Shown: in pieces, positions 2,430 to 10,729 of the stretch | Layout: each line of letters starts with the position of its first letter | How positions within the stretch are numbered: position 1 is the first letter of the stretch | Source: Clostridiales bacterium | GTDB taxonomy: Bacteria; Bacillota; Clostridia; Christensenellales; Aristaeellaceae | Reading direction: 5' to 3' | NCBI GenBank assembly: GCA_012512355.1 | Contig: JAAZEI010000015.1 | Location: 1 to 15,756 of the forward strand | DNA: 15,756 nucleotides | Made by a program: the position numbers and the translations under genes | The notes under the pieces: model-generated | Told to the model about the DNA's origin: nothing | The model's input: the letters and a program-made list of their open reading frames with translations, nothing else | The model's database searches: none

Positions 2430-2459
2430 AAACAGCACAGACAAATGTCTGTGCTGTTT
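2430..2459 (-). terminator. Terminator of the nine-gene metal-cluster operon
   Basis: AAACAGCACAGACA (2430-2443) and its exact complement (2446-2459) form a 14-bp stem with a 2-nt centre. On the minus strand the stem ends in GCTGTTTTATGG, so a short U-tract follows. It lies about 70 nt downstream of the last gene of the operon (stop at 2530) and upstream of the next promoter, which places it as a Rho-independent terminator. Confidence 0.75.
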
Positions 2460-2529
2460 GGATTCGCAACTCTTTTTCATTCTCATTATATCAGTTCAAA
2501 TATGCGACTGCCCACAGGTTTGGGTTCAA

Positions 2530-2871
2530 TTAATGTTCGTGCTCGTGATGGTGCTCATCACAGATAGAGCCACTGTCAACCAGTGTACCTAATCGAAAGG
2601 CCTCTGCCGCGACGCGACTGTTGCCCGTAGCACCTGTGACAACTCGGATATTACGTTCATTGAAAATATCACAGGCCCCTTGGCCCATGCCGCCCGCAAT
2701 GATCACTTCTACCCCCATATCCGCCAGGAAATTGGGCAGGAAACCAGGTTTATGGCCAGGGTTGGCGATTGGCTCGCCCAGTCCTGTGCTGGTATCCACA
2801 ATTAAGAACTCCTCACAATGCCCAAAATGCTGGGCAACCTCACCATGCTGGGATGCAACTGCAATTTTCAT
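2530..2871 (-). CDS. NifX/NifB-C-terminal-like metal-cluster protein with His-rich tail
   Basis: This 113-aa protein is a stand-alone domain of the dinitrogenase FeMo-cofactor biosynthesis family (NifX, NafY, NifB C-terminus, and the anaerobe ORP/MTH1175 group). These are small ribonuclease H-like folds that carry metal-sulfur clusters or their precursors. Diagnostic segments are MKIAVASQHGEVAQHFGHC at the N-terminus, GVEVIIAGGMGQGACDIF near residue 53, and VVTGATG near residue 77. The C-terminus ends in C104 and DEHHHEHEH (residues 105-113), an obvious potential metal-binding tail. The start ATG overlaps the stop of the Mrp gene in an ATGA arrangement, with GGAGAG 8 nt upstream, so translation is probably coupled. 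It is the last gene of the operon. The bound cluster, if any, cannot be read from the sequence. Confidence 0.88.
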   Translation of the reverse strand: MKIAVASQHGEVAQHFGHCEEFLIVDTSTGLGEPIANPGHKPGFLPNFLADMGVEVIIAGGMGQGACDIFNERNIRVVTGATGNSRVAAEAFRLGTLVDSGSICDEHHHEHEH

Positions 2872-3710
2872 CGATGATTCTCTCCTGTCTGTTTGATTAA
2901 TTCAGCAACCGGTTTGAGCCAGTCAGCTTGTAGATCTTCAATAGTTCCTTGGTCACAGGCTTCCGACAGCGCCGGGTCGATGGGCAAACGGGCCAACAGG
3001 GGTAAGTGATGGTTTTTGGCAATTTCCTCAACATGACTTTCGCCAAAAATTTTGTGCTTTTTCCCTGTATCTGGGCAGACAAAATACGATAAATTCTCTA
3101 CCAGGCCCATAATAGGAATATTCATCATTTCTGCCATTTTAACAGCTTTGCTCACAATCATCCCCACCAATTCCTGGGGCGAAGTCACCATCACAATGCC
3201 ATCGATTGGCAGAGATTGAAAGATGGTCAGCGGGACGTCACCGGTGCCCGGTGGCATATCGATGAACATCACGTCCACATCATCCCACACCACATCTGTC
3301 CAAAACTGCTTAACCGTTCCGCCCAGAATAGGGCCACGCCACAGTACTGGATCGCTGTCATTTTCAAGCAGCAGGTTGACTGACATGATTTGGATGCCTT
3401 GACGGCTTACAATGGGAAGTATGTGGGTACCGTCACCTCTGGCTTTCCCTTTAATGCCAAAAGCTTTTGGAATGGAAGGGCCAGTAATATCTGCATCAAG
3501 AATAGCAGTTCTCATGCCCATCTTGTTGGCAGCTACTGCCAGCAAGCCGGTGACAGAAGATTTGCCCACTCCGCCCTTGCCGCTGACAACGGCAATCACC
3601 TTTCCCACCCTGCTATTCAAATTTAGATGCGCGCTTAGGTCCGGTGCTGCAGTTCTGTCCTCACAGGTTTCTTGGCAGTCTTCACAATGTTGGTCGCAAT
3701 GCTCACTCAT
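2868..3710 (-). CDS. Mrp/NBP35 family P-loop ATPase (Fe-S cluster carrier)
   Basis: Members of this MinD-related family (ApbC, Nbp35, Mrp) bind and transfer Fe-S clusters in the cytoplasm. The 280-aa protein has an N-terminal cysteine cluster C5-C9-C12-C16 (CDQHCEDCQETC), a deviant Walker A GKGGVGKS at residues 44-51, a switch segment DADITGPSIPKAFG at 72-85, and DMPPGTGD at 151-158. The family's usual CPxC metal site is CPDT here (residues 212-215), so the second cysteine is missing. The start ATG at 3710 has AAAGGAG 5 nt upstream. It lies 11 nt after the MBL-fold gene and overlaps the following NifX-like gene by 4 nt. An Mrp next to a NifX-fold protein is a recurrent pairing in anaerobes, including the Desulfovibrio ORP system. 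Family assignment is firm; the partner cluster is inferred. Confidence 0.92.
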   Translation of the reverse strand: MSEHCDQHCEDCQETCEDRTAAPDLSAHLNLNSRVGKVIAVVSGKGGVGKSSVTGLLAVAANKMGMRTAILDADITGPSIPKAFGIKGKARGDGTHILPIVSRQGIQIMSVNLLLENDSDPVLWRGPILGGTVKQFWTDVVWDDVDVMFIDMPPGTGDVPLTIFQSLPIDGIVMVTSPQELVGMIVSKAVKMAEMMNIPIMGLVENLSYFVCPDTGKKHKIFGESHVEEIAKNHHLPLLARLPIDPALSEACDQGTIEDLQADWLKPVAELIKQTGENHR

Positions 3711-3721
3711 GGTGTCTCCTT

Positions 3722-4546
3722 TTAAAAAATAGTAATAGTCTGTCCGCAGGAGAGATATTGAAGCTGGTCTCCCAAGCGGTAATTAAGTTTTTCATAGGCC
3801 GTCAGGCCGGTGCAGTGGCAAGTGTAATACTGAGCTTTGGTTAGAGATAAGTAAGATGCAATATGATCCAGCAATTTATCGTCTGCGGTGCCTGATGAAT
3901 GGCTCTCCAAATGAAACCCGCCAATCACGACATCCGGTTCACGCCCCGTAATTTTTTTAATATGTTCAAGTATATTGACAATGCCGTGATGCGAACAGCC
4001 CGTTAACAGCAGCATCTTCCCGTCTTCCTCTACAGTCATCACCTGCTCATGAGAAAAATCATCTGCCAGCATTTCCCCCTCTTTTTCCATCAGCAGACCG
4101 CTGTTGGTATCAGGGATAGGCTCGATAAGCTTGATATCTGAATGCAGTGTAATGCCGGGCATCAATTGGGTTTGCTTCTGTGCAAATATCATTCGTCCAT
4201 TATTCATCAAGTGTTTCGCAAGACCGACATATTCAGTCTGTCCTGCATGTCTTTTTGCATATTGTCCGCCAAAAGCTTCTTCTCTGATGTGAATTGACGC
4301 TTTGTCATTCTCCTGGATGAAGGTGTCGATTCCTCCGCCGTGATCATAGTGACCGTGTGAAATAACCAAGTGGGTAACATCCGCAATATCTACATCCATT
4401 TTTTGAGCATTTCTAAAAAACGTGCCACTGGCTCCGGTATCAAAAAGGACAACAGCATCCTTTGTTTGAATAAGGACAGATAAACCATGCTCACTTTTAA
4501 GATCCTCTGAAATGCTTGTGTTTTCAGAGAGCATCGTGATTTTCAT
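3722..4546 (-). CDS. MBL-fold metallo-hydrolase, COG1237-like
   Basis: This 274-aa metallo-beta-lactamase-fold protein carries the metal-binding motif HGHYDHGG (H64, H66, D68, H69), followed by TGCSHHG (182-188) and GGFHLES with H212, a pattern of the COG1237 group. Some members are annotated as dihydropterin ribofuranosylaminobenzene-phosphate synthase-like proteins, but a specific reaction cannot be assigned here. A further Cys-His-Cys (CHC, 243-245) lies near the C-terminus. No signal peptide is visible, so it is probably cytoplasmic. The ATG at 4546 has an AAAGGAG site about 11 nt upstream. It lies between the ZIP transporter (57 nt away) and Mrp (11 nt), so it is likely part of the same transcript. 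COG1237 genes often accompany NifX/Mrp-type genes in anaerobes. Confidence 0.85.
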   Translation of the reverse strand: MKITMLSENTSISEDLKSEHGLSVLIQTKDAVVLFDTGASGTFFRNAQKMDVDIADVTHLVISHGHYDHGGGIDTFIQENDKASIHIREEAFGGQYAKRHAGQTEYVGLAKHLMNNGRMIFAQKQTQLMPGITLHSDIKLIEPIPDTNSGLLMEKEGEMLADDFSHEQVMTVEEDGKMLLLTGCSHHGIVNILEHIKKITGREPDVVIGGFHLESHSSGTADDKLLDHIASYLSLTKAQYYTCHCTGLTAYEKLNYRLGDQLQYLSCGQTITIF

Positions 4547-4564
4547 CTGCTTTTCTCTCCTTTC

Positions 4565-4586
4565 TTGTAAATACTCATGTTTACAA
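4565..4586. repeat. Inverted repeat between the ZIP and MBL-fold genes
   Basis: TTGTAAA (4565-4571) and TTTACAA (4580-4586) form perfect 7-bp arms around 8 nt in the only sizeable gap (57 nt) in the downstream half of the operon. It could be a regulator site or a weak intercistronic hairpin. The stem is AT-rich and lacks a T-run, so I do not call it a terminator. Confidence 0.35.
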
Positions 4587-4603
4587 TACGCCTTTTGAAA
4601 AGA

Positions 4604-5326
4604 TTATTCAATCAGCAATAACAGAAGCGCAAGTGCCACACCCAAGAAAAACGCCATCGATGAGTGCTTTTTCTCGCCATCTTCTGCTTCGGGCAGAAGA
4701 TGGGACGCCGAGAGATATATCAGCACACCAGCAACAAAACCAAGGGTTAGACCCAGGGTAGCGTCATTCACACGGCTGATGGCTGGATAAGCCAGCAACG
4801 CCCCAATGGGGGTTGAAATCGCTGCGACAAAAAAAGCATATATAGCCGATTTCTTAACTGAAAACCCGGATTTCATCAGCAGTGAAAAAGTAATGACTCC
4901 TTCTGCAAACTCATGAATGACAAGCCCCAAACCCGTCAGAATGCCCATGAGTGCGCTGACAGAGAAAGTGACTGTATACACAACACCGTCCAGCAGCGAA
5001 TGGATAAAAATACCTTGCATGGCAGTGATGCCAAAAGCCAGAGATTTTTGTTTTGTCCGGTGCCTGATAAGTTTATTACTTAAAAACATAAACACAAAAC
5101 CTGCAAGCGCTGCAATACCCGCATGCTCGTTTTTTGAAAGAGCTCCTGGCAGCGCCATGATGAGAGGAGAGGTGATGAGCATGCCGGCTGCAAAGCACAT
5201 AAAATACTCCTGCGTCTTCTCAGCCCAACTTTTATTTCGATAAATAACATAAATGCCCAGACTGTTGACCAGCATAGCACTCATTGAAAAAAGCAAAATT
5301 AAAGGAAAAGGATTGTTATGGCTCAT
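4604..5326 (-). CDS. ZIP family divalent metal transporter
   Basis: This 240-aa membrane protein has about eight hydrophobic segments. It has the ZIP metal-pathway signatures HSLLDG (109-114, transmembrane helix 4) and HEFAEG (138-143, helix 5), plus SHLLPEAE (208-215) before the last helix. ZIP proteins move Zn2+, Fe2+ or related ions into the cytoplasm; the substrate cannot be read from sequence alone. The ATG at 5326 has GAGGT about 9 nt upstream, and the gene starts 34 nt after the stop of the second MinD-type ATPase. Its place inside an operon of Fe-S and NifX-type genes suggests that it supplies metal for that pathway (inference). Confidence 0.88.
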   Translation of the reverse strand: MSHNNPFPLILLFSMSAMLVNSLGIYVIYRNKSWAEKTQEYFMCFAAGMLITSPLIMALPGALSKNEHAGIAALAGFVFMFLSNKLIRHRTKQKSLAFGITAMQGIFIHSLLDGVVYTVTFSVSALMGILTGLGLVIHEFAEGVITFSLLMKSGFSVKKSAIYAFFVAAISTPIGALLAYPAISRVNDATLGLTLGFVAGVLIYLSASHLLPEAEDGEKKHSSMAFFLGVALALLLLLIE

Positions 5327-5360
5327 GTCTCATTACCTCAAACTTCAAAAAGCGGTTTAT

Positions 5361-6230
5361 TTATATTGTTAAAAGTTTAATCATTGTTTTTTCGTACACT
5401 TCACGCACCGCGAACCCTGCAGGGCTTGAAATATCCGCAATGGATTCGCCACGGTTGAGTGCGTTAAACACCTGCTTGTCGTAGGGGATGGTCCCGACAA
5501 AATCGATCTCTTCTTTTTTACAATATCGCCGAATATCTTCCGCCTTTGCTGGGTTTAGATCTGCTTTGTTCACACAAATAGCAATATCTGTCCCCATTCC
5601 CCTGGCCGTTTCTACAATACGCGTCAAGTCACTCATACCGGAAATAGAAGGTTCTGCCACTATCAGGGTCAGAGAAGCCCCGCTTAATGACGCAATAACC
5701 GGACATCCGATACCAGGAGAACCATCAATGATTGCAAAGGGTATGCTTTCATCACTGGCCAGATTCATTCTTTTTTTAACTTCACTTACGAGCTTGCCTG
5801 TTGTGCCGCTGCCCATCTTGAGCAGCGCGGTTGAAAAAACCCAGTCGCTGTCCAGGCATAATGTCATCGTACCCGCTTGATGCGCAGCCATGGAGATGGC
5901 TTTGACAGGGCAAAGCCGCTCGCATACCCCGCACCCTTCGCAGCGAAGAGAGTCTACATGATAAACAGGGTTGGATACTATGGCATCAAAACGACAATGC
6001 GCAGCACATATTCCGCAGCTGATGCAAATGTCTGATTGAATAACAGCTTTCCCCAGATCAAAATATGCCTCTGTTTGTGTTTTTTCGCACTGCGGTGTCA
6101 CCAGGGCCAAGTTGGGTGCATCCACATCGCAGTCGGCATAGGCTCTGGCCTGTGATAAACGAATCATGGCGCTGGCAACAGTTGTTTTGCCAGTACCGCC
6201 TTTGCCGCTAAGAATGACTAACTGCCGCAT
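5361..6230 (-). CDS. MinD-superfamily ATPase with inserted 2x[4Fe-4S] ferredoxin domain (second copy)
   Basis: The protein (289 aa) begins with a P-loop, GKGGTGKTT (residues 9-17). An inserted bacterial ferredoxin-like domain follows, with C69-C72-C75-C79 and C97-C100-C103-C107, each the CxxCxxCxxxC pattern of a [4Fe-4S] cluster. The MinD fold then resumes (IIDGSPGIGCPV near 188, NKADLNPAK near 247). This architecture (COG1149) is characteristic of anaerobes and equals the paired Orp3/Orp4 ATPases of the Desulfovibrio orange-protein complex. The start ATG at 6230 is preceded by AAAGGAG and overlaps the upstream paralogue by 23 nt, so expression should be tightly coupled. It probably works as a heterodimer with its neighbour (inference). 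The ATP-driven reaction is not established. Confidence 0.9.
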   Translation of the reverse strand: MRQLVILSGKGGTGKTTVASAMIRLSQARAYADCDVDAPNLALVTPQCEKTQTEAYFDLGKAVIQSDICISCGICAAHCRFDAIVSNPVYHVDSLRCEGCGVCERLCPVKAISMAAHQAGTMTLCLDSDWVFSTALLKMGSGTTGKLVSEVKKRMNLASDESIPFAIIDGSPGIGCPVIASLSGASLTLIVAEPSISGMSDLTRIVETARGMGTDIAICVNKADLNPAKAEDIRRYCKKEEIDFVGTIPYDKQVFNALNRGESIADISSPAGFAVREVYEKTMIKLLTI

Positions 6231-7077
6231 GCGATATCTCCTTTGTCAATTGATGAAGTAAATCAGAAAATATGTCATGGTACTTATCATCTTCATTTGC
6301 TGCAATCAAGGCGTTTGAATGCATTAGACCAAGTACCGGGTCATGGGGAATGCGAGCAAAAATTGGAATATTATGCTCTCTGCAAAACCTTTCAGCAGGA
6401 TTGGTCCCTTCCGTGCACTTATTCAGCACTGCAGCAAACGGTTTTTTAAACAGCCTGACAAGTTCATATACCATGCTAAGGTCATGCACCCCAAAGCGTG
6501 TAGGCTCTACCACCAGTAGACAGAAATCCGCATCTGTAATGCTCTCCATCGCCATACAGGAACTGCCAGGAGGACAATCTATAAAAATTTGTTCATGATG
6601 ATCAGAGGCAGGAACAGCCAGCAGTTCTTGAATAATTGGTATCCCTGAAGCTTCTCCGGGGTTTAAAAAACCGGATTTGACTGCTACTGCGCCTGAAGAG
6701 CCTTCGCGTACGCAGCCAATAGGTCTGTCTTCTTCATGAAGCGCATTTTGAGGGCAAAATAGAACACAGCCTCCGCACGAGTGGCAGATGCCATCAAAAA
6801 TAAGAAGGGAATTTTTGGCCAAAGCCAAAGCATTGAAAGCGCAGAAATCAACGCAAACCCTGCACCCGTCACAAAGGGCAGGGTTAACACGGGGCACTCG
6901 GACAGTGACGGTTTTTTCTAAGATATGTTCCGGCTTGAAAAAAAGATGACCGTTTGGTTCTTCTACATCACAGTCAATGTACATGGCATGCTCTGCGACA
7001 CTGGCCAAATTGACAGACACCAGAGTTTTGCCGGTACCGCCTTTGCCGCTCAAAATTGCAATTCTTTGTTTACTCAC
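6208..7077 (-). CDS. MinD-superfamily ATPase with inserted 2x[4Fe-4S] ferredoxin domain (first copy)
   Basis: This 289-aa paralogue of the following gene has the same order: P-loop GKGGTGKT (11-18), then ferredoxin insert with C69-C72-C75-C79 and C98-C101-C104-C108, then IDCPPGSSC (near 186) and NKCTEGTNPAE (near 240) in the second half of the MinD fold. The two proteins have the same length and cysteine layout but clearly differ in sequence, as expected for subunits of a heteromeric ATPase. The start is a GTG at 7077, overlapping the preceding NifX-like gene by 8 nt. No strong ribosome binding site precedes it, which points to translational coupling. The role inferred from known ORP systems is ATP-dependent, Fe-S-containing maturation or assembly of the NifX-like partner. 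Confidence 0.9.
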   Translation of the reverse strand: MSKQRIAILSGKGGTGKTLVSVNLASVAEHAMYIDCDVEEPNGHLFFKPEHILEKTVTVRVPRVNPALCDGCRVCVDFCAFNALALAKNSLLIFDGICHSCGGCVLFCPQNALHEEDRPIGCVREGSSGAVAVKSGFLNPGEASGIPIIQELLAVPASDHHEQIFIDCPPGSSCMAMESITDADFCLLVVEPTRFGVHDLSMVYELVRLFKKPFAAVLNKCTEGTNPAERFCREHNIPIFARIPHDPVLGLMHSNALIAANEDDKYHDIFSDLLHQLTKEISHAAVSHS

Positions 7078-7441
7078 CAGCCTGACCGTGTAATCCTTTG
7101 TGAATCTCGCTGAGCTGCGTTAATCTGCCTTCTTCGAAAGCTTTAATATTGTCCATGGCACTAAGATTATCAAGAGACTTGTATAGTTTTATGCCAGCTG
7201 CCTTGAGTACATCAGCTGCATTTTGTCCGCATCGCGGAGTTAAAAGAACTTCAGCGCCGCTATCGACTACTATCTGAGCTGCCAGAACACCAGCTCCACC
7301 GGCGCTGTGAGCAGCAATATTTTCACGCAGCTGCGTTGAATCCAGACTGTCATCATGAATAAGATAAAAAGGAGCCCTCCCAAAAGAAGTCGCGACCTCA
7401 GAAGCTGTAGTGTTGCTATTGACCGGTATTGCGATTTTCAT
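7070..7441 (-). CDS. NifX/NifB-C-terminal-like (ORP-type) protein
   Basis: This 123-aa member of the dinitrogenase FeMo-cofactor biosynthesis family begins MKIAIPVNSNTTASEVATSF and has FGRAPFYLIHD near residue 20 and VLLTPRCGQNAADVLKAAGI near residue 67. In related systems such proteins carry Fe, Mo or Mo-Cu sulfide clusters. It lacks the His-rich tail of the second NifX-like protein at the operon end. An AGGAGG site at 7453-7448 touches an ATG at 7447 but lies 6 nt before the in-frame ATG at 7441, so 7441 is the true start. The gene overlaps the end of the DUF134 gene and the start of the first ferredoxin-ATPase gene. Confidence 0.87.
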   Translation of the reverse strand: MKIAIPVNSNTTASEVATSFGRAPFYLIHDDSLDSTQLRENIAAHSAGGAGVLAAQIVVDSGAEVLLTPRCGQNAADVLKAAGIKLYKSLDNLSAMDNIKAFEEGRLTQLSEIHKGLHGQAGE

Positions 7442-7940
7442 TTTCATCCTCCTGAATTTTTATTGTATTATCTTGCTGTATACGGTTGATCCCTATTCCC
7501 CTGCTTGGACGGCCGGACCCCTGACCTTGACCTCGTCCTTGCCCTTGACTTTGACCTCGTCCTTGCCCTTGACCTTTTCCACGTCCTAGGCCACGTCCTT
7601 GTCCTGGGTGATGATATCTGCAACCCTGTCCACAGCCTCCATCCAAATTGTCGCATAGCCTGTATTCTCCGCCATCTATTGACAGCATCAGACCTTCGAC
7701 CAAAAACTTCGCAATTTTGTTTCTGGCCTCAGCATATATTCCCTGCACTGTGGTGCGCGCAACATTCATTTGAATGGCACATTCTTCCTGGGTAAATCTT
7801 TCCAGGTCGATAAGGCGGATACTTTCATATTCATCCACCGTCAGGCTGACGATATCTCCAAGCCCTTTGGCATCCAGCGGACCAAAACGTCGGCTTTGGG
7901 GCAGCTTGCATACATGTCGATATTTAATGGGTCTGGACAA
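7416..7940 (-). CDS. DUF134 (UPF0251) DNA-binding protein with Gly/Gln/Arg-rich tail
   Basis: The first 95 or so residues are a DUF134 domain: MSRPIKYRHVCKLP, then LTVDEYESIRLIDLERFTQEECAIQ and a helix-turn-helix like sigma-70 region 4 (about 50-78, MNVARTTVQGIYAEARNKIA). Next come possible metal ligands C96, C103, C107, H110 and H111. A low-complexity stretch of GQGRG-type repeats fills about 112-145, and the last residues are polar (QEDENENRN). The tail is unusual; typical DUF134 proteins are shorter. The start is TTG at 7940 with GAGGTG about 6 nt upstream. The gene is second in the operon and overlaps the following NifX-like gene by 26 nt. It is the only transcription-factor-like protein in the window, so it is the natural candidate for binding the operator pair upstream and for sensing metal or redox state (inference). 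Confidence 0.85.
   Translation of the reverse strand: MSRPIKYRHVCKLPQSRRFGPLDAKGLGDIVSLTVDEYESIRLIDLERFTQEECAIQMNVARTTVQGIYAEARNKIAKFLVEGLMLSIDGGEYRLCDNLDGGCGQGCRYHHPGQGRGLGRGKGQGQGRGQSQGQGRGQGQGSGRPSRGIGINRIQQDNTIKIQEDENENRNTGQ
7521..7620. repeat. 24-bp tandem repeat inside the DUF134 gene
   Basis: The 23-nt unit at 7527-7549 recurs exactly at 7551-7573 (period 24 bp), and degenerate versions continue to about 7605. In the coding frame this gives an 8-residue period of the GQGRGQSQ kind, building the Gly/Gln/Arg-rich tail. Such repeats can expand or contract by slippage while keeping the frame, because 24 is a multiple of three. Confidence 0.8.
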
Positions 7941-7963
7941 ATCTTCACCTCATTTTTTTAGCA

Positions 7964-7988
7964 GGCGGGGGAGCGTCCTCCCGCCGCC
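7964..7988 (-). promoter_or_regulatory. GC-rich intercistronic hairpin between the DUF5320 and DUF134 genes
   Basis: GGCGG and CCGCC form the outer pairing, and GGGAG and CTCCC the inner pairing, with one bulged base and a 4-nt loop: a ten-pair, almost all-GC stem. It lies 10 nt after the DUF5320 stop. The transcript then runs into A residues and the ribosome binding site of the DUF134 gene, not into a U-tract, so it is not a canonical terminator. It more likely stabilises or processes the mRNA and sets the ratio of the first gene to the rest. Confidence 0.55.
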
Positions 7989-7998
7989 TATTGTTTAG

Positions 7999-8283
7999 TT
8001 ACTCGCTTTGCAGTGTTTTGTCAAGGGCATCCAGCTGAGCTTTAAGGTTGTCACGCCTCTGCTGCAGCTGCTCTCTTGAAGCTTGAACAGGATTGTCGTT
8101 TATCGCCATGGCCCTGCCATACCCTTGACCATAGTTCATACCGCGCCCTGCTCCGGCACCACGGCCTCTTGCACCGCCTCGGCCCATTGTGCAGCCGATT
8201 CTTTGACCACCTCCGCAAGGGCCAAAGCCCCTACCTGTCATCGCTCCGGTCCCCATGGGACCAGTTCCATCCATTCTTGGCAT
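7999..8283 (-). CDS. DUF5320 family small protein
   Basis: This 94-aa protein starts MPRMDGTGPMGTGAMTGRGFG, the hallmark of DUF5320, and continues with GPCGGGQRIGC and a Gly/Arg-rich stretch to about residue 58. A short predicted coiled coil (about 66-94, ASREQLQQRRDNLKAQLDAL) closes it. The two cysteines (near residues 23 and 31) could bind metal or a cluster. The ATG at 8283 follows AAGGAGGTG with good spacing. It is the first gene of the nine-gene operon and in anaerobes recurs beside NifX-like and ferredoxin-MinD genes. No molecular function is known. Confidence 0.85.
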   Translation of the reverse strand: MPRMDGTGPMGTGAMTGRGFGPCGGGQRIGCTMGRGGARGRGAGAGRGMNYGQGYGRAMAINDNPVQASREQLQQRRDNLKAQLDALDKTLQSE

Positions 8284-8300
8284 ATGTTTTCACCTCCTTA

Positions 8301-8364
8301 TAGTTATTGACATATGTCACTTACAACACCATCATACCACATTACTGACATATGTCAATAACTA
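8301..8364. promoter_or_regulatory. Paired 19-bp inverted operators flanking the operon promoter
   Basis: TAGTTATTGACATATGTCA at 8301-8319 is repeated exactly, inverted, at 8346-8364, with 26 nt between. Each copy contains the perfect 12-bp palindrome TGACATATGTCA (8308-8319 and 8346-8357), the shape of a site for a dimeric regulator; the centres are 38 bp apart. The distal copy contains the -35 box and the proximal one lies just past the predicted transcription start, so binding of both would block transcription. DUF134, encoded in the same operon, is the candidate binder (inference). Confidence 0.8.
8331..8358 (-). promoter_or_regulatory. Sigma-A promoter of the nine-gene operon
   Basis: On the minus strand, TTGACA (8358-8353) is followed after 16 nt by TATGAT (8336-8331), and TGG immediately before the -10 provides an extended -10 element. 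Transcription should start near 8324, leaving a leader of about 40 nt that includes the proximal operator and the AAGGAGGTG ribosome binding site. Confidence 0.8.
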
Positions 8365-8556
8365 TTTTTCGGTTCAAAATGAAATATTTTCTTTAGTCTA
8401 ATAGCTGAAAGTAAATCATCTTCATCCGCCTCTCGCCTAGGAATAAAAAGAATGAGGGAGATTTCGGAATTGATACCGCATAGATAATTGGCATCTCTTT
8501 ACAATACGATCTATGTATAGCGGGTTTATCATTATCGAAATTAGGGTAAATCATTA

Positions 8557-8618: not shown

Positions 8619-8846
8619 ATGACTAAATCATATAGTATCATAGGCCTTGATTGCGCGAATTGCTCAACTAAAATAGAGCGGAAAATAACCGGATTGTCCG
8701 GAGTTCATGATGTTCGCGTTAATTTTCTGACTCAAAAATTAACATTGGAAGCTGATGAAGTCAAAATGCATGCTCTCGCACAGCAGGCAGCTCGAATCGT
8801 ACGTGAAGTGGAGATAGGTGCCCGGCTCCTCCTGCCCAAAGTATGA
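8619..8846 (+). CDS. Free-standing HMA (heavy-metal-associated) domain protein
   Basis: This 75-aa protein is a single ferredoxin-like HMA domain with the metal-binding loop GLDCANCSTKIE, in which C12 and C15 form the CxxC. HMA domains bind soft metals and pass them to P1B-type ATPases. In most such ATPases the domain is fused at the N-terminus. Here it is a separate gene whose stop overlaps the ATPase start (ATGA at 8843-8846), so it is best read as the detached regulatory or chaperone domain of that pump. The AAGGAGG site lies about 7 nt before the ATG. The aspartate just before the first cysteine (DCANC) is typical of Zn/Cd/Pb-type HMA domains. Confidence 0.9.
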   Translation: MTKSYSIIGLDCANCSTKIERKITGLSGVHDVRVNFLTQKLTLEADEVKMHALAQQAARIVREVEIGARLLLPKV

Positions 8847-10729
8847 AGATCAAGCTTCGGCTTATTTTATTTGCATCAGCTTTATTTGCTGCGGGTTTCT
8901 TCTTTGAAAATGGTAAGGTCTGGCGAATTGTGTTGATGCTGGGTGCCTATGTCTTGGTGGGTTATGATGTTCTATGGCGCGCATCGAGAAATATTTCCCG
9001 CGGAAAAATATTTGACGAGAACTTTCTGATGTCTCTTGCCACTATCGGCGCTGTGATTATCGGTCAATACGCTGAGGCTGTGGCGGTGATGGTATTTTAC
9101 CAGACCGGCGAATTATTTCAAGATTACGCAATTGACCGTTCCCGGCGCTCCATCGCGCAAACCATGGATTTGCGACCAGACTCGGCAAATCTCATCACCG
9201 CCAGCGGCATCATTGCTGTGGATCCGCAAAATATAAAAGTGGGAGATATGATCCTGATTCGTCCTGGCGAGAAGGTGCCTCTGGATGGCATTGTTGAAGA
9301 TGGCATCACGATGCTTGATACGGCTGCCCTGACGGGCGAACCGCTTCCCAAGGAAGTGAGGCCGGGAGACAATATCTTAAGCGGCTGTGTCAACCTCTCA
9401 GGAGTGATCTCCCTTCGAGTCAATAAGATATTTGGCGAGTCTACCATCAGTCAAATTTTAGAAATGGTAGAACATGCGACAGACAAAAAATCTCGTCAGG
9501 AAAAGTTTATCACCCGCTTTTCAGAAGTCTATACACCCATCGTAGTTGTATCAGCTTTGCTGCTGGCATTTTTACCACCGCTTCTGGTGCAAGGAGCGGA
9601 ACTCTCAGACTGGGTATATCGGTCATTGAATTTTCTGGTCGTATCCTGCCCCTGCGCGCTGGTTATCTCCATTCCTCTCTCTTTTTTTGGCGGCATCGGC
9701 GGCGCATCACGTGCGGGCATCCTGGTAAAAGGCTCCAACCACATGGAGGCACTCGCCAAAGCCCAAACTTTTGTTTTTGATAAAACCGGCACCTTAACAC
9801 TTGGCAGCTTTTCCGTACAAAAAATCAATCCAGCCAGGGGCAATGAAAAAACACTTTTAGAATTAGCAGCCCTGGCGGAAAGCCAATCCAACCACCCCAT
9901 TGCCCAGTCGATCCGACAATCGCACGGGCAGACATTGGACGCGAATCGTGTACAGAACATTGAGGAGATGGCAGGCGGGGGTGTGAGCGCTCGCATAGAT
10001 GGAATCGATACGCTCATCGGCACACAGCGGATGCTAAATGAGCGAGGTGTTGTTGTACCGCAGGTAGATTCCCCGGGCACGGTCACCCATATATCCCAAA
10101 AAGGTGAATATCATGGTCACTTGATTATCTCAGACAAGATCAAGCCCTGTGCCAAAGAGGCACTGCAAAGGCTGCGCGCCAGGGGCGTCAAACAGCTGGT
10201 GATGCTCACCGGCGATAATGAACAGGTTGGGCGCATCACGGCAGACCGCTTGAATATTGACTTAGTCTTTGCAGGACTGCTTCCGCAGGATAAAGTTATA
10301 AAGTTGGAAGAGTTATTAGCCCAGCCAAACCGCAGAGGTACTCTGGCTTTTGTTGGCGATGGGGTTAACGATGCGCCTGTTTTGGCGCGCGCTGATGTCG
10401 GCATCGCCATGGGGGCCCTGGGGTCGGACGCAGCCATCGAAGCCGCCGATATTGTCATTATGAATGATGATCCCTGTAAAATGGCCTCAGCTCTTGATAT
10501 CGCCAGGCGAACCGTGCACATTGCCAAACAAAATGCTGGCTTCGCCTTATCGGTTAAAGCTTTGGTGCTGGGCCTGAGCGCTTTTGGGCTGTCTACCCTC
10601 TGGATGGCTGTATTTGCTGATGTCGGCGTGACAATACTGGTCATCCTCAATGCCATGCGCGCTTTGCGCGTACCAAAAGAAGCCTTCAGCTGCTCTGAGG
10701 ATTCTAACTGTCCTGTCAAAACAGTATGA
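8843..10729 (+). CDS. P1B-2-type Zn2+/Cd2+/Pb2+-exporting ATPase (CadA/ZntA family)
   Basis: This 628-aa integral membrane pump exports soft divalent cations using ATP. Motifs in order: TGEP in the actuator domain (164-167), the membrane metal site CPC (269-271), the phosphorylation site DKTGT with D313, the P1B-specific HP dipeptide in SNHPIAQS (H351), TGDN (456-459), and GDGVND (505-510). In the last helices K572 and D593 occupy the places of the conserved Lys and Asp of P1B-2 pumps, pointing to Zn/Cd/Pb, not Cu. There is no N-terminal HMA domain; the protein starts directly with the first hydrophobic segments, and the HMA is encoded by the preceding gene. A CSEDSNC pair near the C-terminus could add a metal site. 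It overlaps both neighbours by 4 nt (ATGA). Confidence 0.95.
   Translation: MKIKLRLILFASALFAAGFFFENGKVWRIVLMLGAYVLVGYDVLWRASRNISRGKIFDENFLMSLATIGAVIIGQYAEAVAVMVFYQTGELFQDYAIDRSRRSIAQTMDLRPDSANLITASGIIAVDPQNIKVGDMILIRPGEKVPLDGIVEDGITMLDTAALTGEPLPKEVRPGDNILSGCVNLSGVISLRVNKIFGESTISQILEMVEHATDKKSRQEKFITRFSEVYTPIVVVSALLLAFLPPLLVQGAELSDWVYRSLNFLVVSCPCALVISIPLSFFGGIGGASRAGILVKGSNHMEALAKAQTFVFDKTGTLTLGSFSVQKINPARGNEKTLLELAALAESQSNHPIAQSIRQSHGQTLDANRVQNIEEMAGGGVSARIDGIDTLIGTQRMLNERGVVVPQVDSPGTVTHISQKGEYHGHLIISDKIKPCAKEALQRLRARGVKQLVMLTGDNEQVGRITADRLNIDLVFAGLLPQDKVIKLEELLAQPNRRGTLAFVGDGVNDAPVLARADVGIAMGALGSDAAIEAADIVIMNDDPCKMASALDIARRTVHIAKQNAGFALSVKALVLGLSAFGLSTLWMAVFADVGVTILVILNAMRALRVPKEAFSCSEDSNCPVKTV

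Follow-up and report, generated by a model that had tools for sequence, protein, structure and literature searches.

Genes and operator pair at the locus

We analysed a 15,756-nt stretch of DNA (hereafter the window), the complete contig JAAZEI010000015.1 of an incomplete Clostridiales bacterium genome (GCA_012512355.1; 2.0 Mb in 367 contigs, 79% complete), which carries a nine-gene cluster related to the orange-protein (ORP) cluster of Desulfovibrio and a pair of operator arms at its promoter. The nine open reading frames lie on the minus strand, with the order and families given in the initial annotation. They encode DUF5320, a small Gly/Arg-rich protein (7999..8283; PF17253, 69.7 bits), the putative regulator DUF134 with a TTG start (7416..7940; PF02001, 68.2 bits against a cut-off of 27 bits), the NifX-fold protein NifX1 of the MTH1175/ORP type (7070..7447; PF02579, 58.2 bits), the MinD-type ATPases MinDA (6208..7077) and MinDB (5361..6230), each with an inserted 2x[4Fe-4S] ferredoxin, a ZIP-family metal transporter (4604..5326; PF02535, 74.3 bits), an MBL-fold hydrolase (3722..4546; PF00753, 57.9 bits) that is kin of 2p4z (E 6e-38) and TM1679 (3h3e), the Mrp/NBP35-type ATPase Mrp (2868..3710; PF10609, 289 bits), and NifX2, a NifX-fold protein resembling the C-terminal domain of MrpORP (2530..2871; PF02579, 68.8 bits). 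All exceeded their Pfam cut-offs (DUF5320, DUF134, Nitro_FeMo-Co twice, CbiA and Fer4 in both ATPases, Zip, Lactamase_B, and ParA for Mrp). Four junctions among the genes overlap and the remaining gaps measure 11–58 nt; no tRNA and no Rfam family above threshold was detected in the window.

A promoter-like site beginning at 8358 consists of TTGACA, a 16-nt spacer and TATGAT preceded by TG, and matches the consensus at 11 of 12 positions. The −35 hexamer (8358–8353, minus strand) is contained in the upstream arm (8346..8365) of an inverted repeat that is perfect over 20 nt, the −10 box (8331..8336, minus strand) is placed between the arms, which are separated by 26 nt, and the downstream arm (8300..8319) lies just beyond the inferred transcription start. 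Both arms contain the 12-bp palindrome TGACATATGTCA, the two copies being 38 bp apart, and the upstream arm is conserved in relatives. The sequence TTGACATATGTCA occurs without mismatch in two copies, only at this promoter in the assembled part of the genome. This operator pair did not figure in the initial annotation. At the opposite end, a terminator-like hairpin (2430..2459, minus strand) combines a 14-bp perfect stem with a short U run (RNA fold −21 kcal/mol, z −4.9); a consensus terminator scan of the window did not list it. The nine genes are thus predicted to form one operon between the sigma-70-type promoter and this hairpin, and the limits originally drawn for the locus (2430..8364) were well chosen, given the promoter-like site at 8358 and the hairpin at 2459–2430. 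Between DUF5320 and DUF134, a strong hairpin that lacks a U run (7962..7990, minus strand; −22.8 kcal/mol, z −4.5) could set the ratio of these two products or serve as a processing site.

Conservation of the operator across Clostridia

The 15-mer TTATTGACATATGYC was found at 73 sites in 46 of 196 Clostridia genomes. The counts for control patterns were 2 sites in 1 genome for the reversed 15-mer, 5 in 4 for a scrambled version keeping the −35, and 9 in 7 for that scrambled version reversed. Merging sites within 60 bp left 60 site clusters, 50 of which precede DUF5320 (28), DUF134 (15), NifX1 (3), NifX2 (3) or MBL (1), a target being counted when its gene begins between −220 and 450 bp from the site. 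The architecture of the promoter was retained as well: a −10 box stood 16–18 nt from TTGACA in 65 of the 67 testable regions, compared to 10.8 expected from shuffles, the testable regions being those that begin with TTGACA out of 87 upstream regions with the palindrome, some of which share a promoter. Spacing in 40 palindrome pairs ranged over 22–96 bp and peaked at 38 bp (14 pairs), followed by 36 and 39 bp (6 each). A cultured relative, Anaerovirgula multivorans (L158), likewise carries the operator pair.

DUF134 is present in 81 of the 196 genomes, in 45 of the 46 with the motif as opposed to 36 of the other 150, and in 47 of 47 genomes with the ATPase pair as opposed to 34 of the other 149. 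Because the 15-mer was picked after the ATPase loci had been seen, the fair test is confined to the 149 genomes without the pair, where DUF134 occurred in 12 of 13 motif genomes vs 22 of 136 others (p 4e-8; this and our other co-occurrence p values are too small because the genomes are not independent, a point to be counted against the reading developed below). In such no-pair genomes the motif stands ahead of DUF134 (G008, G029, G062, G092, G097 and G137) or ahead of DUF5320 followed by DUF134 (G011, G073 and G083), and operator half sites vary with the DUF134 subtype (5 half sites with GTC were excluded from this test). These placements, the tight association outside the ATPase-pair genomes and the co-variation of half sites all argue against the idea that another regulator reads the operator and DUF134 is a mere passenger gene. 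Binding of DUF134 to the operator is itself deduced from sequence, and one genome (G145) has the motif and lacks DUF134; both facts favour such a reader, whose existence we nonetheless regard as improbable.

Clusters outside the counted families include one at a DUF364 gene in G090 and one in G179, where the site precedes a MerR gene with an ORP-like operon behind it; for six others (G040, G062, G093, G123, G144 and G155) no clear target was seen. In a Clostridia genome other than the window's own, an operator-like palindrome made of two overlapping 15-mers (L130, 3228–3247) lies ahead of a DUF364 gene for putative heavy-metal chelation. The sole other exact 15-mer site in the window's own genome, on contig C309 (L121, 1114–1128), is 392 bp before a ferritin-like gene. 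It has 19 nt in common with the window arm, and TAAGAT stands 17 nt downstream of its TTGACA. For the ferritin-like gene, whose long leader has no Rfam match, a riboswitch was rejected, the best score being 23.5 bits, elsewhere in the locus, against a gathering score of 65.3. Near-matches elsewhere in this genome, on C295 and, ahead of an RNase Y gene, on C191, were left out of the counts. In the open-licence literature, covered mostly at the level of titles, no paper listed for the operator string had a title that fits, and we found no description of a DUF134 operator. UPF0251, the other name of DUF134, appears in the available part of PMC5886521 only as a mutation in a list; PMC10434189 was discarded as a DUF134 source, the term in its accessible text being DUF1349.

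DUF134 as a candidate reader of the operator

DUF134 has a predicted helix-turn-helix that may be similar to sigma region 4, and Cys residues at positions 54, 96, 103 and 107. Its relatives exceed the Pfam cut-off for sigma region 4, its profile matched DeoR and an extracytoplasmic function sigma factor in the PDB, and by sequence and predicted fold its helix-turn-helix may be akin to those of sigma region 4 proteins, UPF0122 and the DeoR DNA-binding domain. Unlike sigma region 4 proteins, DUF134 is short, has no other sigma region in the Pfam match, carries extra Cys residues and would read inverted TTGACA-type half sites. The window protein has 174 aa with a long G/Q/R repeat tail (7416–7600, minus strand); most of the 120 relatives listed have 111–149 aa.

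The operon is most likely autorepressed, with DUF134 dimers predicted on both arms. Each dimer would read two inverted −35-like TTGACA half sites via its helix-turn-helix. With both arms occupied, RNA polymerase would be denied the −35 and the start site, which would repress the operon that encodes DUF134, and the Cys residues may sense Fe-S or metal status. Extending this model, we tentatively suggest, at a little under an even chance, that DUF134 represents a class of repressors in anaerobes that mimics sigma region 4, reads inverted promoter −35 hexamers as a dimer, uses Cys residues to sense Fe-S or metal-sulfide status, and controls a regulon consisting of an ORP-like metal-sulfide machine (the ATPase pair, NifX, Mrp and DUF5320) and, in some species, ferritin.

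Relationship to the ORP cluster and distribution of the genes

The window cluster is kin of the ORP cluster and may work in a similar way. As in Desulfovibrio vulgaris, two MinD-type ATPases with two [4Fe-4S] motifs each (Orp3 and Orp4 there) are adjacent, Mrp and Di-Nase domains are present, and the ORP-type NifX-fold protein Orp8 is matched by NifX1 (2wfb, 45.2 bits), a likeness of sequence only. The two domains of MrpORP (NF041136) are matched in the same order by Mrp (324.4 bits) and NifX2 (92.3 bits), which bears out the likeness to the ORP core claimed in the initial annotation. In contrast to the fused MrpORP (Orp9), the window has separate reading frames (2868–3710 and 2530–2871), the score of Mrp stays below the cut-off of 450, and the second Cys of the CXXC motif is lost; fusions of Mrp and NifX2 occur in several relatives. 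According to the part of PMC3897727 available to us, the orp operons depend on sigma-54 together with the activator DVU2106 and IHF; these divergent operons differ from the window, where DUF134 accompanies a sigma-70-type promoter and a ZIP gene is present. A motif search detected no sigma-54 activator among the window proteins scanned or within 6 kb of the ATPases in any of 48 Clostridia loci, window included, in agreement with the absence of such a regulator noted originally. We therefore class the cluster as a variant of ORP, since neither the fused MrpORP nor sigma-54 control was found.

The distribution was surveyed in 148 loci, consisting of 48 from Clostridia, the best 80 of 303 confirmed loci from a profile scan of GTDB contigs, and 20 from the order of a Desulfohalobiaceae genome, which we take to be Desulfovibrionales. 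Neighbours were counted within 6 kb; some loci are cut by contig ends, and some repeat one genome, L049 and L160 being identical in MinDA. The best 80 loci came from Bacillota, Synergistota, Chloroflexota, Planctomycetota, Thermodesulfobacteriota, Omnitrophota and several archaeal groups with an unchanged core, so that the description of the system as a Gram-positive version was too narrow. Across the 148 loci we counted MinDB in 146, NifX1 in 129, NifX2 in 116, Mrp in 66, DUF5320 in 56, MBL in 25 and ZIP in 4. The initial annotation had named loci where ZIP, MBL and Mrp never accompany the ATPase pair as evidence against it, and all three do occur beside the pair.

DUF134 was found at 70 of these loci, a sigma-54 activator at 7 and both together at 0, an exclusion limited to ATPase loci, as G056 pairs DUF134–Mrp with an activator. 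The motif searches for MerR and the activator are crude (four MerR-like first genes were recognized by grouping vs two by motif), and one activator (L252) lies beyond the 6-kb limit. Two matches each were present in 37 of 41 Desulfovibrionales genomes; the 20 loci of this order had an activator in 6, DUF134 in 6, DUF5320 in 7 and MBL in 3, so the view of the hydrolase as an addition to the ORP core is not supported. The MinDA tree groups the window with other members of a 43-row clade (SH-aLRT 99), in which 36 rows have DUF134 nearby, and DUF134 was found in 18 of 24 genomes picked from the GTDB scan. The operons of L057, L061, L062 and L063 open with a MerR-like gene, ahead of Mrp and NifX1, and in G179 the operator motif precedes such a gene.

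Operon proteins and the cluster they may handle

We consider it probable that the nine genes, as one operon akin to the ORP cluster and under DUF134 control, act in the assembly, delivery or storage of iron-sulfur (or other metal-sulfide) clusters. Gene content, conserved order, the conserved operator pair within the promoter and the tight co-occurrence of operator, DUF134 and ATPase pair were computed. The link to iron-sulfur comes from NifU_N scaffold genes in the operons of relatives, the likeness to MrpORP, the NifX domain of IssA and the ferritin-like gene behind the operator-like site on C309. A NifU_N gene is located between DUF134 and NifX1 in L042 and L165 and shortly after DUF134 in G179 (L144). 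MrpORP, according to the part of PMC6345978 available, moves Fe-S clusters in vitro, and the corresponding part of PMC5524996 reports Fe and S binding by the NifX domain of IssA.

After release of DUF134, NifX1 (125 aa) and NifX2 (113 aa, ending in a short His-rich stretch) may hold an inorganic metal-sulfide cluster, MinDA and MinDB would shift the cluster or its electrons using ATP, Mrp may hand it on, and ZIP would import Fe2+ or Zn2+; the roles of DUF5320 and MBL are guesses. Motifs in these proteins are well kept: the single conserved Cys of DUF5320 (C23; 18 proteins), the HxHxDH motif of MBL (14 proteins), the deviant Walker A GKGGVGKS at residues 44–51 of Mrp (26 proteins), which also has four N-terminal Cys, and all eight ferredoxin Cys of MinDA (invariant in 22 sequences). 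Small proteins are encoded between NifX1 and MinDA in L051 (10593–10892) and L053 (9342–9647), the L051 copy being a borderline BMC-domain match.

The ferredoxin Cys bear on the proposal, made for ORP, that the MinD-like pair positions the division septum or a polar complex, its Fe-S centres sensing redox only. That the orp genes are putatively involved in septum positioning is stated in the part of PMC3897727 consulted, and the ATPases do match the MinD type, but the window operon lacks MinC and MinE, the neighbours are NifX, Mrp, NifU_N, ZIP and DUF5320, and the eight Cys are invariant; we find this function highly improbable.

An operon for an ORP-type Mo-Cu-S or other non-iron cluster, carried by the NifX proteins and inserted by the ATPases, is suggested by the match of NifX1 to ORP (2wfb, E 8e-11), given that Orp8 belongs to the proteins holding S2MoS2CuS2MoS2 (PMC6345978, in the part seen). 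NifX1 is nearer to MTH1175 (1eo1, 70.9 bits), the neighbour proteins chosen, which were part of the unlabelled reading frames, included no Mo or Cu transporter by Pfam match, and NifU_N and ferritin indicate iron, making this alternative unlikely.

A third alternative is an iron-sulfide store resembling the thioferrate protein IssA of Pyrococcus furiosus, in which the NifX domains and the Gly/Arg-rich DUF5320 (and the DUF134 tail) would hold thioferrate, and the ATPases and Mrp would release it. Both systems share the NifX fold (IPR003731), IssA combining it with a cationic Gly-rich tail (PMC5524996, available part), and two IssA homologues are up in FeS2-grown M. voltae (PMC8516115, likewise). 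DUF5320, with its one conserved Cys, is also the nearest counted gene at 28 of the 60 site clusters. The cationic Gly/aromatic C-terminal tail of IssA, however, is missing on NifX1 and NifX2, Gly/Arg-rich sequence being found here in DUF5320 and the DUF134 tail; a tail acting in trans is speculation, and DUF5320 occurs within 6 kb in 56 of 148 ATPase loci only. Such a store seems to us rather unlikely.

The presence of ZIP was correctly recognized in the initial annotation as the addition of a metal importer, but it is a rare one (4 of 148 loci), and we rejected it as a constant part of the system. Its subfamily is found in 5 of the 196 genomes, all five with the ATPase pair (own genome excluded, chance 0.003). 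ZIP was also rejected as a distant regulon member, as no convincing operator motif lay near three outlying ZIP genes. Divergent from the operon and back to back with it, positions 8619–10729 (plus strand) encode a small HMA protein and a heavy-metal P-type ATPase (TIGR01525, 536 bits), possibly an exporter facing the importer.

Discussion

Several observations weigh against cluster handling under DUF134 control. On the operator side, 10 of the 60 site clusters lack a counted family within range, one of them being 42 bp from lepA in G145, the genome without DUF134; the exact motif is absent from 36 DUF134 genomes; and the ferritin site on C309 is a single arm, 392 bp off, in one incomplete genome. 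The search of about 1.5 kb around ZIP genes outside the operon in three genomes gave nothing convincing: two genomes had only weak matches, with 2–3 mismatches, and the third had none. For DUF134 itself, the sigma match of the window protein is sub-threshold only, and its predicted model aligns to sigma region 4 with a best Foldseek E of 0.09, which is not significant, and a VIA Z <8. The proposed Cys sensor is inconstant: among 37 near relatives, 59% retain C103 and 84% retain C96, and of C96, C103 and C107 only C107 is kept in the proteins of L046, L055 and L058. In L119 (G056 C55, 2027–5204), DUF134, Mrp and a sigma-54 activator are consecutive without the ATPase pair. Finally, the CXXC motif of the window Mrp is degenerate (CPDT at 212–215, second Cys lost), which speaks against a simple carrier role; this motif of MrpORP is tied to cluster binding in the part of PMC6345978 available. 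Mrp proteins from loci other than the 20 of Desulfovibrionales numbered 70; in the 65 with a readable segment, 6 (window included) keep the first Cys only and 3 keep neither.

Pfam lists DUF134 (UPF0251) and DUF5320 as families of unknown function, yet DUF134 is carried by 81 of the 196 Clostridia genomes surveyed here. What is new concerns regulation: with a defined operator and a candidate reader for it, a regulon, and what appears to be an exchange with sigma-54 activators, this becomes a testable system, and an easy one to test, since related anaerobes carry the same operator. The system may reveal how anaerobes sense and handle iron sulfide.

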